A stretch of DNA of 64,000 bases from Verrucomicrobiia bacterium (lineage in GTDB: Bacteria; Verrucomicrobiota; Verrucomicrobiia; JABWAM01). Below, piece after piece: positions 1 to 29,014 of the stretch; the stretch's first letter is position 1, and the number at the start of each line of letters is the position of its first letter. Location of the stretch: positions 1 through 64,000 of the forward strand of contig JAQUAF010000013.1 in NCBI GenBank assembly GCA_028687435.1, in the 5' to 3' direction. Position numbers and translations under genes: made by a program. The notes under the pieces were generated by a model, which was given only the letters and a program-made list of their open reading frames with translations, did no database searches and was not told where the DNA came from.

Positions 1-102
1 AACTTCAAACGATTCAAAATGTTGACCCAAAAATGGATCGACCTCGCCCTGACGCTCTCCAGACTGGAAGTTGAGGAAGCTAAAAAATCACTGAAGGAGT
101 AG
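1..102 (+). CDS. 3' end of an unidentified gene (partial)
   Basis: The first frame is open from the window edge to a TAG stop at 100-102 and gives 33 residues ending in an amphipathic stretch (LEVEEAKKSLKE) typical of a C-terminal helix. The gene begins outside the window. The tail is too short to assign a family. It is followed by 91 bases without a recognisable gene, then by the 3' end of the convergent DUF1573 gene. Confidence 0.45.
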   Translation, partial: NFKRFKMLTQKWIDLALTLSRLEVEEAKKSLKE

Positions 103-193
103 TCCAGAATTCGGTACTCTCAAGCTCTGAAGAATGGTCAATTTCAAGAATTATAGGATGACAGTGAAAAGAAATGATGCGCAAATCCCCAAC

Positions 194-922
194 TCAGCGC
201 GGTTTGGCGGGAAATTGTTCGCTCAAACCCGCCGGCAACGTCGATTTGCCCACAATGGTTTCCACGGAATAAACGCGCGGTCTTCCGCCGGGATCGCTTG
301 TTTCCATCCGGATGATTTCCCTCACCGGTTTTGCCGTGCCGGTGGGGGTGACGACCACGGTGTATTCTTTTCCCTCAACGCGTGTTTGCAGCTTGGGAAC
401 AAAACGTGCGCCATCGCTGCTCACCTTGGTGATTTGAATGGGGGCGGCGGTTTCTGCCTTCAACCGGATTGTTTTCGCCGTGGCCGCTTCCCCCACCGAC
501 CAAAACAAGGATGGCGGGTCAATGGTGAGAGGCGAGGGAATGAACGCTCGCAGTTGGAGCACGGAAACCGGATTCTGCGCGTCATCCGTGGAAACCGCGA
601 TTTGGTGTTCTTGCCGGCCAAGCCTCCGGCCAAACTCAAACTGGGCGGTCAGCGTCCCTTTTTCCCCGGGTTGATAGGTTTTCTTGTCCACCAGCACCGT
701 CACGCATTTGCAGTTTGATTTGATGGCATTGATGGTGACCGGCCGTTTGCCCTCATTGCGAAAATGATATTCCGCGATCATCCCGCGATCCTGGACGGTG
801 GGACGCAGTTCCAATACCGGAGATTCCCACTTGATCTGCGCTTGTGACACGGAAAACGGAGCAAGGCTGCAAACAACGGCAGCGAAATATTTTGTAAAAC
901 GGTCAACAGGCAGGCAGAACAT
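194..922 (-). CDS. Secreted DUF1573 domain protein
   Basis: This is a 242-residue protein with an N-terminal signal peptide (about residues 1-28, ending VSQAQ). Residues about 45-125 match the DUF1573 pattern: an Ig-like strand with FRNEGKRPVTI, the paired cysteines C71-x-C73 in SNCKC, and PGEKG at 85-89. DUF1573 proteins of Bacteroidetes and PVC bacteria are exported and their function is not established. The rest of the protein is beta-rich, probably a second Ig-like fold. The ATG at 920-922 is followed directly by the signal peptide. The gene is divergent from the secreted ankyrin protein, with about 100 bp of AT-rich sequence between them that probably holds both promoters. Family assignment is good; role unknown. 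Confidence 0.8.
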   Translation of the reverse strand: MFCLPVDRFTKYFAAVVCSLAPFSVSQAQIKWESPVLELRPTVQDRGMIAEYHFRNEGKRPVTINAIKSNCKCVTVLVDKKTYQPGEKGTLTAQFEFGRRLGRQEHQIAVSTDDAQNPVSVLQLRAFIPSPLTIDPPSLFWSVGEAATAKTIRLKAETAAPIQITKVSSDGARFVPKLQTRVEGKEYTVVVTPTGTAKPVREIIRMETSDPGGRPRVYSVETIVGKSTLPAGLSEQFPAKPR

Positions 923-1024
923 GACAACAATAATATAAAAAGAGATTTTTCACGGCAAATCTATTTTTTTCGATTCAGATTTTCCTTTCGTCTTGGCGGG
1001 AAATATTCTCTACACTTGACAGGC

Positions 1025-2635
1025 ATGAAAGCTCCTTTTTTTTCGTCTTTCTTCCTGCTCCTTGTTGCCGGTTCGTTGTCCGCCCAGAAATCAATGTCTC
1101 CTGTCATTCTGACAGATCCTCCCCTTGTCGCAGCCGCAAAAGTCGGCAGTTTCACCCAAGTCAAGGTTTTGCTGGACAAAGGCGTTTCAGTGAATTCCAC
1201 CGATGCGGAAGGTAAAACCCCCTTGTTTTGGGCGGCGGAACGCGGTCATTTTGAGATTGTCGAACTCGCGCTTGCCAAAGGTGCGGATGTCAATCTTGCC
1301 AGCGTCGAGGGGTGGACGCCCCTCATGAAAGCCGCCGCCGCCGGACATGTGGCCATCGCAAAAATTTTGATTTCGAAAGGCGCCAGAGTAAACGCCAAAA
1401 ATGCCGGTGAATGGACTGCCCTCAATCTTGCGGCGGCCAATGCCCGCGTTGAAATGGTTCGATTGTTGCTTGCCCATGGGGCTGTGGTCAATGAACCCAA
1501 CCAATTTGGGAAAAATCCGCTTGATTATGCGATTGCTTTTGCCGATCGGACCGGCCAGCCAGAGCTTGCCGCATTGCTGACCAAAGCGGGCGGAAAACCA
1601 ACTCCGCCCCCGGCGTTCTCTTCGTCTCCTTCGGAAAGCAAGAAAGTTCAAACGATGGCGGACCATGTGAAGTCGGGCAACTTGGCCAGGGTTCGGGAAT
1701 TGCTGAAAAGCGGAATTCCTCCCGATCAGCGTGATGAGGGCGGCAAGACGCCGCTCATGTGGGCTGCGGAACGAAACCGCCATGAAATCGCCATGCTTCT
1801 CCTGGAGCGTGGCGCCGATGTGAATGCCTCCACTTCGGAAGGTTGGACGCCGCTCATGAGCGCTGTCACAGGCAGTCAAACAAAATTGCTGGAGCTTCTG
1901 ATTGAAAGGGGCGCCAAAGTCAATGCCAGACATCAAAGCGGCTGGACCCCCATGATCCTTGCCTCGCTGACCAGGCATGCCGATGCCGTTGCCTGCCTTC
2001 TTAAACATGGAGCAAATGTCAATGCCAGGAATTCCTCGGGAAAGGGCGCTCTTGATTACGCTTTGGAGAACAACCAGACTCATTTGGCGGTCATGCTGCA
2101 AAAAGCCGGAGCAACCGCCGTCCTCCCTTTGCCGTCGGAACTTCCCGACACCGACCAATCACTTGCGGCCTGGGCCAAGATCGGCCATGTTAAAAAAATC
2201 CAAGCCATGCTGGATCAGGATGCCAGGGTTGATGAACCTGACAGGGAAGGCAAAACTCCTCTCATGTGGGCCGCGGAACGTGGGCAATTGGAGGCTGTCA
2301 GGATTTTTCTGAAGCATGGCGCGGATGTGAACGCAGCCAAGCCGGGGCAGGGTTGGACGGCGCTTATGGGCGCCACGGCCGGGGGACATGCTGAAATTGC
2401 CCTGCTCCTGCTTCAAAAAGGGGCGAAAATCAACGCCATTGACTCACAAGGCAGGACTTCGCTGATGCTGGCCGCCTTGATGGGCAACGTGGAAATGGCC
2501 AGGCTGCTGCTCAAGCAGGGCGCGGATCCTGGCGTTAAGGGTTGCAACGGTGAAACCGCTCTCACCCTCGCCAGACAGTATAACCAGACAGCCATGGCAA
2601 ACCTTCTCGCCGGGGCGGCCAAAAGACAGCGATAG
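1025..2635 (+). CDS. Secreted ankyrin-repeat protein with triplicated block
   Basis: The protein has 536 residues and starts at the ATG at 1025, which begins a clear signal peptide (MKAPFFSSFFLLLVAGSLSA); an in-frame TTG lies three codons upstream. The rest is ankyrin repeats, with motifs such as GKTPLMWAAERG and LLLERGADVNA. They fall into three blocks of about 150 residues (roughly 30-185, 205-350 and 365-530), each with about five repeats and each containing the same G-K-T-P-L-x-W-A-A-E-R repeat near its start. Low-complexity Pro/Ser linkers separate the blocks. Ankyrin arrays bind proteins; a periplasmic or extracellular location is inferred from the signal peptide. No catalytic domain is visible. 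It appears to be monocistronic. Confidence 0.85.
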   Translation: MKAPFFSSFFLLLVAGSLSAQKSMSPVILTDPPLVAAAKVGSFTQVKVLLDKGVSVNSTDAEGKTPLFWAAERGHFEIVELALAKGADVNLASVEGWTPLMKAAAAGHVAIAKILISKGARVNAKNAGEWTALNLAAANARVEMVRLLLAHGAVVNEPNQFGKNPLDYAIAFADRTGQPELAALLTKAGGKPTPPPAFSSSPSESKKVQTMADHVKSGNLARVRELLKSGIPPDQRDEGGKTPLMWAAERNRHEIAMLLLERGADVNASTSEGWTPLMSAVTGSQTKLLELLIERGAKVNARHQSGWTPMILASLTRHADAVACLLKHGANVNARNSSGKGALDYALENNQTHLAVMLQKAGATAVLPLPSELPDTDQSLAAWAKIGHVKKIQAMLDQDARVDEPDREGKTPLMWAAERGQLEAVRIFLKHGADVNAAKPGQGWTALMGATAGGHAEIALLLLQKGAKINAIDSQGRTSLMLAALMGNVEMARLLLKQGADPGVKGCNGETALTLARQYNQTAMANLLAGAAKRQR

Positions 2636-26316: not shown

Positions 26317-27645
26317 TTATGTGGTGCTGACCAGGTGGTATTCGGAACGAGGGGAACGCCGGACCTGAAGGATGGCCCGCGCCCGCGCGAGGCTTGCGGA
26401 TGTGATGGAGGATTCCTTGGCGCGCATCAGAACTGTTTGCGCCCAGCGGCGGGGGGATTCCTCGGGTGGCGCAATGGTTGGTTTGAAGGGATCATCCAGG
26501 GAAATTTCAAATTCGGCGGCGTATCGCAACGCTTCCATGAATGTGAAGGGAGTGCAGCTGGCATCCTCGGTTTTGATTTCCTGGTAAGCTTCCGCAAAGG
26601 TCATGGGCATGGTTTTGCCTTCGAACCGTTTTTTGAGAAGCGTGAGGACTTTTTCGAGTTCCGGTGTGCGCAGAGCGGCTGGCGTCTGTCCCGTGGGCCA
26701 TGCGGAAAAATCCTTGGAAATCCAATCCATCAGGCGGATGTAAAATGGCAGGGAATGGGCTGCTGTGAAGGATGCCTTGTCGAGATTGGACTTGATGAAT
26801 TGCGGGGTCAACGGCAGCACCAGACGGTTGAGCTCCTCTCCGAGTTGCTTCAGCGCCTGGGCAAATTCGGGACCTCCCGCGCGAGTGATTCGGACCAGCA
26901 GCATGTCAACAATCTGACGCACCCGTTCGCGGGTCATGTTGAATTTGCGTCCAACTTCGGCCAGGGCCATGGGCTGTCCCATGCCGCCGGTCCGATCAAT
27001 GAAAATCTGCCGGTATTGGGGTTGGAGTTGGGCGACTGTGGCATCGATTTTTCCAACCAGGGAGACAATGGGGTTTTCGGTCAAAGGTTTCTCCGGGCTC
27101 CCAAATTCTCCGCGTTCGATCCGGCTGATGATGTCCTGCAATTCATTCAAGGTTCGTTGGCCGCAATTTGGAACCACCAGCAAATCCGCGCAAACCACAC
27201 CGTGCAAGTCTCCGAGGGTTTTGTGGTTGAGCTTTTGCAGAACATGATCCAGCCGGATGGAAAGGGGAAGATGGGAGACCGGCCAATTTCTGGCGTATTC
27301 CGGAATGGACAGCGTTCGATTGTTGCCGGAAGCGTAAACGGTGCGATTGATCTGCCCGTCCTTTTGTGATTCGGATTGCGCGTATTTTTCAATGAGTCGC
27401 ACAATTTCGTTGAATGTCTTCGCGCCGCAATTCTTTAGCTCCAACAGTTTGCTGCAGGCAATCCCATCCAAATCCCCCAGTTTTTGAGTCCCCATGCGCG
27501 CCAAGGCGCTCATGGCGCGCTTGGAAAGAGGCAGATCGCGGGTTTTTTCCTGAAAAAAAGCAGGATTGATGCGAAAAACGTTTTCAATGGGAACAGGAGT
27601 TGTTGCCTCAGGTGAGGGGGGATTGATGGCCGGCTTCTGTTGCAT
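26317..27645 (-). CDS. Regulator with two alpha-CTD-like domains and a sigma-4-like HTH
   Basis: The protein has 442 residues. Residues about 38-86 and 126-176 are two copies of a helix-hairpin-helix fold like the RNA polymerase alpha C-terminal domain; compare [19 protein letters not shown] with [19 protein letters not shown]. Residues about 205-250 resemble sigma-70 region 4: an acidic/aromatic helix ([12 protein letters not shown]) then the [23 protein letters not shown]. The 190-residue C-terminal part is helical and unrecognised. There is no sigma region 2, so it should not act as a sigma factor by itself. It probably binds UP-like DNA or contacts RNA polymerase. Monocistronic, with a 193-base upstream spacer. 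Confidence 0.82.
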
Positions 27646-27838
27646 GGAATTGATAGATTAATTTTTTGGTCATACACGAGGTCGAATGAAAAATGTCAAA
27701 CGACTTCGCTAAAAAAGGATTGGACATGTTCTAGCGCAATGAGTTGCAAAAGTCAATAGCAGAGATGAAGAATATGCTGGACGTAAAAAATATCCCTTTT
27801 CAGCATACTTCGGGGGCCATTTGTCCCATGCCTGGGAT
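27646..27838. other. Spacer upstream of alpha-CTD/sigma4 gene
   Basis: This 193-base spacer contains an imperfect inverted repeat (AATATGCTG at 27772-27780 and CAGCATACT at 27801-27809). It lies between the end of the cysteine desulfurase gene and the start of the alpha-CTD/sigma4 gene, on the same strand. It may end one transcript and start the next. Confidence 0.35.
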
Positions 27839-29014
27839 TTAGGCGTTTTCCGGACCGAGCGGCGAAATGGCTCTTAACTTTTGAATGATGGCAGGGAGGA
27901 CGGCTATCGTTTTGTCAATGTCTGAATCAGTGTTATAGGTGGACAAACTGAAACGCACGGAACCGCGTGCACGAGCCGGGGGAATGCCCATGGCCAAAAG
28001 GACATGAGATGGGTCCAGCGATCCGGTGGTGCAGGCTGAACCTGAGGAGGCACAGATTGAATAATGGTCGAGCATGGTCAAGACGGCCTCTGATTCGATG
28101 AAATCAAATCCCAAGCTGGTGGTGTTGGGAAGGCGCATTTTGCGGGAACCATTGACCCATGTGTGGGAAATGGTGGACAGGACATGATTTTCCAATCGAT
28201 CACGCAGAGCTCTGATCCGCGTGTTTTCTTCCTCAATGCGGTTGGATGCCAGTTCGCAAGCTTTGCCCAGGCCCACAATATGCGATACATTTTCAGTTCC
28301 ACCGCGTTTGCTTCGTTCCTGTCCACCGCCAATGACCATGGGAGAGAAGGCAACTCCTTTGCGAATGTAAATTGCGCCGATCCCTTTGGGTGCGTGAAGC
28401 TTATGACCGGCAATGGATAGCATATCGATCTTGTTTTGCTTCATGTCAATGGGGATTTTCCCAACGGCTTGAACGGCGTCGGTGTGAAAGAGGACGCCTT
28501 TGGATTTGCAGATTGCGGCAATTTCCTCGACAGGGAAAAGAACACCGGTTTCATTGTTGGCCCACATGATGGAACAGATGGCGGTTTTTTCATCCACAGC
28601 CTTATCCACAGTTTCAGGGGCCAGAGTGCCGTCCGATTGGACGGGGAGCCGGACGACTTCAAAACCCTTTTTTTTCAAGAAATCGCCCATTTTGACAATT
28701 GCGGAGTGTTCGACTTGGGTGGTGACAATTTTTTGGCGTCCGGTGGTTTCCAAGGCGGAGAGAATGGCCGCATTGTCGCTTTCGGTGGCGCAGGAGGTGA
28801 AAAGGATTTCCCTTGGGGCGGCGCCGATGATTTGGGCCACCTGTTCGCGGGCTGTTTCGATGGCGGCGCGAACCTGGCTTCCGAAACGGTAGGCGCTGGA
28901 AGGATTTCCCCAGAAATCCTTCAAAAAAGGCAGCATGGCCTCCATCACTTCGGGAGCAATGGCTGTGGTGGCGTTATTATCCAGGTAGATGATGTCTTTG
29001 GGGAGAAGGTTCAT
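27839..29014 (-). CDS. Cysteine desulfurase (NifS/IscS family)
   Basis: The protein has 391 residues. It is a PLP-dependent class V aminotransferase fold enzyme that moves sulfur from cysteine as an enzyme persulfide. Visible are YLDNNATTAI at the N-terminus, HTDAVQAVGK, the PLP lysine in SIAGHKLHAPKG and the persulfide cysteine in ASSGSACTTGSLDPSHVL. The long SxxS-A-C-x-x-G-S-L loop is the group I (NifS/IscS) form. No IscU, NifU or Suf scaffold lies nearby. The ATG overlaps the TGA of the upstream unknown gene by four bases (ATGA), so the pair is translationally coupled. Confidence 0.93.
   Translation of the reverse strand: MNLLPKDIIYLDNNATTAIAPEVMEAMLPFLKDFWGNPSSAYRFGSQVRAAIETAREQVAQIIGAAPREILFTSCATESDNAAILSALETTGRQKIVTTQVEHSAIVKMGDFLKKKGFEVVRLPVQSDGTLAPETVDKAVDEKTAICSIMWANNETGVLFPVEEIAAICKSKGVLFHTDAVQAVGKIPIDMKQNKIDMLSIAGHKLHAPKGIGAIYIRKGVAFSPMVIGGGQERSKRGGTENVSHIVGLGKACELASNRIEEENTRIRALRDRLENHVLSTISHTWVNGSRKMRLPNTTSLGFDFIESEAVLTMLDHYSICASSGSACTTGSLDPSHVLLAMGIPPARARGSVRFSLSTYNTDSDIDKTIAVLPAIIQKLRAISPLGPENA

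Follow-up and report, generated by a model that had tools for sequence, protein, structure and literature searches.

The window, by which we mean the whole 64,000-nucleotide stretch of verrucomicrobial DNA analyzed here, contains an open reading frame (ORF) at positions 26317 to 27645 of the minus strand, which starts with ATG and encodes 442 amino acids. From the ORF itself, Pfam matches, and orthologues, the product is read as a variable tail, a domain resembling the C-terminal domain of the RNA polymerase alpha subunit (alpha-CTD), a linker, a second alpha-CTD, another linker, a sigma region 4 (sigma4), a winged-helix-like region, a winged helix, and a final tail. RNA_pol_A_CTD (PF03118) matched in two stretches (E 2.6e-16; best over residues 32 to 86) and Sigma70_r4 (PF04545) over residues 205 to 246 (E 2.3e-7), both over the curated Pfam cutoffs. 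Beyond these domains Pfam gave no other match of weight and no enzymatic domain, and sigma region 2 (PF04542), sigma region 3, and the alpha N-terminal domain (alpha-NTD) were not detected. Among the NCBIfam models, those for rpoA matched the CTD part alone (51 of 277 bits) and those for sigma factors matched region 4 alone, and the best PDB sequence matches were RpoD region 4 (1tty_A, E 1.6e-4) and alpha-CTDs. The first-pass annotation, made from the DNA letters only, had described two alpha-CTD-like HhH domains followed by a sigma-70 region 4-like part without sigma region 2; its ORF coordinates and motifs were correct, and each part of that description is borne out by these searches.

Immediately upstream is a cysteine desulfurase gene (IscS/NifS-type aminotransferase class V; 27839 to 29014, minus strand), and the wider surroundings are housekeeping genes (iscS, nuoB, and a response regulator), with no helicase, nuclease, methyltransferase, or kinase gene adjoining. 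The cysteine desulfurase notwithstanding, no dnd genes were found among the neighbors scanned. The only other alpha-CTD encoded in this genome is that of rpoA, and since RpoA and RpoD are encoded separately, the window protein is an extra factor.

DNA-contact residues in the alpha-CTD and sigma modules

The first alpha-CTD-like domain (residues 31 to 88; 27382 to 27555, minus strand) is supported by PF03118, by alignment of its determinants, and by its predicted fold. Aligned to the E. coli alpha-CTD, its R43, G74, K76, T77, and E80 are the equivalents of R265, G296, K298, S299, and E302. In agreement with the HhH assignment, the corresponding region of the AlphaFold model matched solved alpha-CTDs in Foldseek (9dvt_A; TMt 0.79, rmsd 1.7), with no match reaching E 0.001 and with matches allotted to the CTD or the C terminus as inferred from the kind of target. 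The second domain (residues 118 to 176; 27118 to 27294, minus strand), which corresponds to the second PF03118 stretch, aligns R131, H134, G162, R164, T165, and E168 with the alpha-CTD determinants. The resemblance between the two repeats, noticed earlier from shared motifs such as LGDLxG that are all present, amounts to 21 identities in 50 positions (42%) without gaps, and the alignment score of 108 compares with a maximum of 43 among 1,000 shuffles.

Both CTDs retain R265, G296, S/T299, and E302 in each of the four orthologues (the window protein and its three counterparts described below), and position 298 is basic throughout (K in CTD 1 and R in CTD 2); these are the residues with which alpha-CTD contacts the minor groove. 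Three orthologues retain N268 in CTD 1, where the window protein has S, and all four have H at this position in CTD 2. In the distant homologue at locus L113, Pfam does not detect the HhH repeats, which are unlike each other, and several determinants differ. Compared with the RNA polymerase alpha subunit, then, the window protein has the fold and DNA-contact residues of the CTD in common but lacks the alpha-NTD, carries two CTD copies, and is fused to sigma4. A family signature, R[IV]xRG[ED]FG (residues 175 to 182; 27100 to 27123, minus strand; alignment A1), lies between CTD 2 and sigma4, which are separated by about 20 residues, with CTD 1 a further 25 to 30 residues away.

The sigma-70 region 4-like domain (PF04545; 1tty_A) spans residues 196 to 255 (26881 to 27060, minus strand), with the recognition helix placed at residues 237 to 247 (26905 to 26937, minus strand) by alignment to E. 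coli sigma-70. T583, R584, E585, R586, R588, and Q589 (E. coli numbering) are all kept, and TRER-RQI is invariant across five sequences, the distant homologue included; we take the TRERxRQ residues to be those with which sigma reads the −35 element. K593, R596, and R599, in contrast, are replaced; in E. coli these make up the basic patch through which sigma4 contacts activators and alpha-CTD. With the base-contact determinants kept and these three residues lost, the DNA-reading surfaces are conserved and the partner-contact surface is not. The window protein thus has the −35 recognition helix in common with sigma-70 factors but differs from them in the absence of regions 1.2, 2, and 3 and in the loss of the activator-contact patch.

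These features bear on whether the protein works on RNA polymerase itself, as in the first-pass suggestion that it could place the enzyme at promoters or compete with alpha and sigma for it. Its sigma4 would dock on the beta flap, where it would displace or replace region 4 of the housekeeping sigma, and its CTDs would supply UP-like DNA, with sigma appropriation or promoter activation as the outcome. The beta flap naturally binds sigma4, for which RpoD region 4 is the nearest solved relative here; moreover, region 4.1 shows no variation at the equivalents of R562 and G564 among the four orthologues, and the domain order suits promoter geometry. However, the equivalent of F563 is not kept, a loss that adds to that of K593, R596, and R599 (all four presumably facing the flap or activators), and sigma4 folds are reused by proteins that act on DNA only. 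We consider a polymerase-bound factor of this kind rather unlikely.

The missing sigma2 beside a well-kept sigma4 also raises the idea that the ORF encodes one half, sigma4, of a split sigma factor, which would need a separate sigma2 protein, as in SigO/RsoA of B. subtilis. The genome, however, gave 11 sigma2 matches, every one in a frame of at least 181 residues, which is ordinary sigma-factor size, and no small ORF containing sigma2 only was found near the window gene or elsewhere in the assembly, where 94% completeness leaves room for one to have escaped. We regard a split sigma factor as highly improbable.

C-terminal region, conservation, and upstream DNA

The final 190 or so residues had been called unknown in the first-pass annotation, which holds insofar as no Pfam family matched the C-terminal part of the window protein or of two close orthologues at E values up to 10, but a winged-helix DNA-binding fold is predicted there. 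AlphaFold models were built from the window protein, its full-length relative L033, and sigma4 pieces of related loci. The model of the full protein (2 sequences) had a mean pLDDT of 51 and was fairly confident at residues 330 to 380, whereas that of residues 190 to 400 (6 sequences) had a mean of 68; over residues 330 to 380, pLDDT was about 65 to 85 in both. The two models agree on a helix at 328 to 341, a second at 350 to 360, a third from 366 (to 373 or 375), and a two-stranded wing, and on this basis residues 328 to 393 (26467 to 26664, minus strand) are predicted to form a winged helix-turn-helix. Foldseek matches assigned to the C terminus were mostly winged helices (the Fur family, LOTUS, ScpA, and Rok), none of which reached E 0.001. 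Preceding this fold, residues 259 to 320 (26686 to 26871, minus strand) contain three predicted helices and a short strand in the model of residues 190 to 400, together with a conserved PLTP...FY core, and another winged helix there is likely, if tentative.

The look of the motifs had suggested membership in the HARE-HTH family, but PF05066 gave no match up to E 10 in the C-terminal piece or in the orthologues tested, and only the general winged-helix fold is retained. A profile search of the PDB with the C-terminal region returned two chance matches to TRAP transporter subunits (E 0.2), which were discarded.

Among 93 related genomes, full-length orthologues were found only within the same family, in G002 (44% identity), G003 (36%), and G004 (35%), and all three share the layout of the window protein. 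No orthologue was seen in the fourth other family member (G001; 74% complete) or in the single genome examined from the same order. A diverged homologue that aligns over the whole length (24% identity) is present in G408, from a different class of the phylum; a search of 240 genomes of that class found no second one. A scan of genome contigs recovered one full-length relative, L033, the other hits being essentially sigma4 only and mostly from Sphingobacteriaceae; matches in viral contigs were short and confined to sigma4, and phages gave no match to the window protein. For the G003/G004 pair (loci L005 and L006), dN was 0.31 and dS 1.35 (dN/dS about 0.23), with constraint on all domains, highest in sigma4 and the last winged helix and lowest in the N-terminal tail. 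The ORF is thus a real, conserved gene, which by these alignments is under purifying selection and vertically conserved in the family.

In its own genome (G000) and in G003 and G004 the window gene comes after the cysteine desulfurase gene, an arrangement absent from G002 and G408, and gaps of about 100 to 220 bases suggest that the gene has its own promoter. In the window this A/T-rich intergenic region (27646 to 27838, minus strand) contains TTGACA at 27694 to 27699, 54 bases before the start codon, and TTGAC at 27752 to 27756, a weak candidate for the gene's own promoter or an autoregulatory site. TTGAC(A) beside A/T runs occurs upstream of three of the four orthologues, a pattern that lends weak support to the regulator reading given below, since it fits autoregulation but would be given just as well by an ordinary promoter. 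A consensus scan of the region for promoters and terminators found nothing, and by eye no good −10 element is evident upstream of the window gene or its L005 and L006 orthologues; the upstream sites of these three genes may be either an unusual promoter or an operator. At L005 and L006, TTTTATTGACA followed by A-tracts lies about 31 to 34 bases before the start codon.

Relatives in Verrucomicrobiota, plasmids, and defense loci

Across 195 genomes of the phylum, nearly all encode a single alpha-CTD and 11 encode more. In four of the ten genomes other than that of the window, the extra alpha-CTD belongs to a family of about 350 amino acids (L174, L175, L177, and L178) with alpha-CTD, sigma4, and a winged-helix-like end. 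This family (alignment A7) has alpha-CTD followed by sigma4 as in the window protein but only one CTD; hhalign aligned the two families through the CTD, linker, and sigma4 (97.3%, E 2e-11), and homology of their C termini is not supported (hhalign probability 0.1). The C-terminal end of the A7 family carries a conserved AHYxxIT...RVxRGxY pattern and looks like a winged helix, and its member in G095 is encoded about 11 kb from rpoA. As for the remaining genomes, L181 has two CTDs ahead of sigma4, L180 is a DNA ligase HhH, two (L172 and L173) are complete sigma factors with a C-terminal alpha-CTD, and L176 (G134, 1 to 1680, minus strand) is a 1,221-residue frame in which three nearly identical alpha-CTDs in tandem precede sigma4. 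L179 (G214) encodes a PglW-like chain with a Ser/Thr kinase, an alpha-CTD-like HhH, and a sigma4-like HTH (SRQRIGQV). Two further candidates were set aside, since the suspected alpha-CTD-sigma4 fusion in G293 is an ordinary sigma factor and L041 is likewise a sigma factor.

Plasmid relatives and E. coli records are annotated as "sigma factor-like helix-turn-helix DNA-binding protein," a label that, as the first-pass annotation had noted, comes with no described mechanism in the literature searched. The plasmid relatives all have sigma4, and two have a Pfam alpha-CTD. Like the window protein, proteins of this label carry sigma4 after one or more HhH/alpha-CTD-like repeats and before winged helices or other C-terminal regions; unlike it, they are 437 to 1,017 amino acids long (five read) and lie in mobile or island contexts, and clear similarity to the window protein is local to the CTD and sigma4. 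The window protein belongs to the same class in having HhH/alpha-CTD and then sigma4 in one chain without sigma2, but it is chromosomal, its two CTDs are clear, and its C-terminal region is distinct. Proteins combining alpha-CTD, sigma4, and winged helices recur, rarely, in Verrucomicrobiota and on plasmids, and several such relatives adjoin DNA-modification or defense genes. On a Pontibrevibacter plasmid (L159, 114 to 9833), a 1,017-amino-acid HhH/sigma4 protein is encoded between dndCDE with a cysteine desulfurase and a phosphorothioation restriction enzyme; at L145 the sigma-like relative lies within a methyltransferase/helicase/ATPase cluster; and at L161 (6771 to 11451) a DEAD/DEAH helicase gene accompanies that of an 816-amino-acid sigma4/winged-helix protein, with IS remnants around and corA nearby. 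The L161-type protein of E. coli was found in 83 of 5,426 genomes by near match, with the helicase beside it in the chromosome examined, and the pair looks like an undescribed defense candidate.

The presence of several members of the wider class beside such genes makes DNA reading independent of RNA polymerase a serious alternative, in which the window protein would sense DNA or read DNA modifications for a defense-like system, as PglW, MzaA, and the sigma-like proteins encoded in Dnd or methyltransferase islands may do, and would be unrelated to transcription. PglW has been described as containing an alpha-CTD plus winged helices and BrxL as containing sigma-like HTHs (PMC12839542), sigma-like HTHs occur in DndH variants (PMC10853773), and mzaA has been termed a sigma factor (PMC9523054). 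The only PADLOC matches of the window protein were PglW (BREX type 2), which matches its CTD locally, and MzaA (MZA system), which matches its sigma4 locally. However, the whole-length scores (23.7 of 990 bits for PglW and 34.2 of 800 for MzaA) are far below the family cutoffs, and the window protein lacks the kinase or other enzymatic part. Moreover, mzaBCDE neighbors were not found (the closest genes being iscS, nuoB, and others), nor were other system genes nearby, and the gene is vertically kept amid housekeeping genes. A defense role for the window protein itself accordingly seems unlikely to us.

A putative reader of UP/−35-like DNA

The protein has four or five DNA-binding modules and nothing catalytic, which is most simply read as a DNA-binding regulator. 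Judging from its sequence, our leading explanation, which we consider an even call, is that the gene encodes a nonenzymatic, multicontact DNA-binding regulator that reads UP/−35-like DNA and imitates the upstream half of promoter-bound holoenzyme in a single chain. A/T-rich, UP-element-like DNA would be held in its minor groove by the two alpha-CTDs, sigma4 would read a −35-like TTGAC in the major groove next to it, and the winged helix or helices at the C terminus would extend or stabilize the contact. The CTD-CTD-sigma4 order and the short spacing between CTD 2 and sigma4 mean that the single chain could lie along DNA as free alpha-CTDs and sigma4 do on the upstream half of a promoter. Lacking sigma region 2, the protein could not open a promoter alone and would act by occupying sites, which might then be repressed or marked, or where RNA polymerase might be helped if the enzyme is also touched. 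The DNA binding of the protein, its polymerase contact, its site and targets, and the sign of its regulation are all points that we infer.

A wider claim, that a single-chain mimic of the upstream surface of holoenzyme, with two alpha-CTDs and sigma4 suitably ordered and spaced, occupies UP and −35 promoter halves, either competing or cooperating with the enzyme, and that the class extends to several phyla, is possible but falls somewhat short of an even chance. Besides the kept DNA-contact residues and the loss of the basic sigma4 residues, the recurrence of the alpha-CTD-sigma4 order in a second verrucomicrobial family (A7) supports the regulator reading, and the N268 changes, the divergence of L113, and the low depth of the models count against it. 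Sigma4 and HhH folds also serve nonpromoter DNA binding in PglW, BrxL, and DndH (PMC12839542, PMC10853773).

The class is almost unstudied, and in the literature searched we found no description of an alpha-CTD-sigma4 fusion regulator and no mechanism for the layout of the window protein. The domains are known and fusions are already in databases without a described function; what is new is a tandem-CTD version with its own C-terminal region that is chromosomal and nearly confined to one family. If the regulator reading is true, bacteria have more than once made regulators out of RNA polymerase's own promoter-reading parts, with an A/T tract plus TTGAC as the predicted site and a mechanism for proteins so far labeled only "sigma factor-like." As the same modules occur in defense-linked proteins, a mechanism established for this small chromosomal protein could apply to them as well, and the interest of the finding lies in the class and its testable site prediction more than in the single gene.

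A different arrangement of these parts was also observed. L172 (499 to 1713, plus strand) and L173 (1474 to 2724, minus strand) encode complete sigma-70-type factors (regions 1.2, 2, 3, and 4) with a C-terminal alpha-CTD (Pfam E 3e-16 and 6e-15). The same type occurs at G371:C42:7179-8384 (L186) and G398:C444:22901-24076, giving full-length matches in four genomes from two related verrucomicrobial families, while the sigma factors of other relatives match it only up to about residue 270 to 300. A sigma factor that carries its own UP-element reader merits a separate look.
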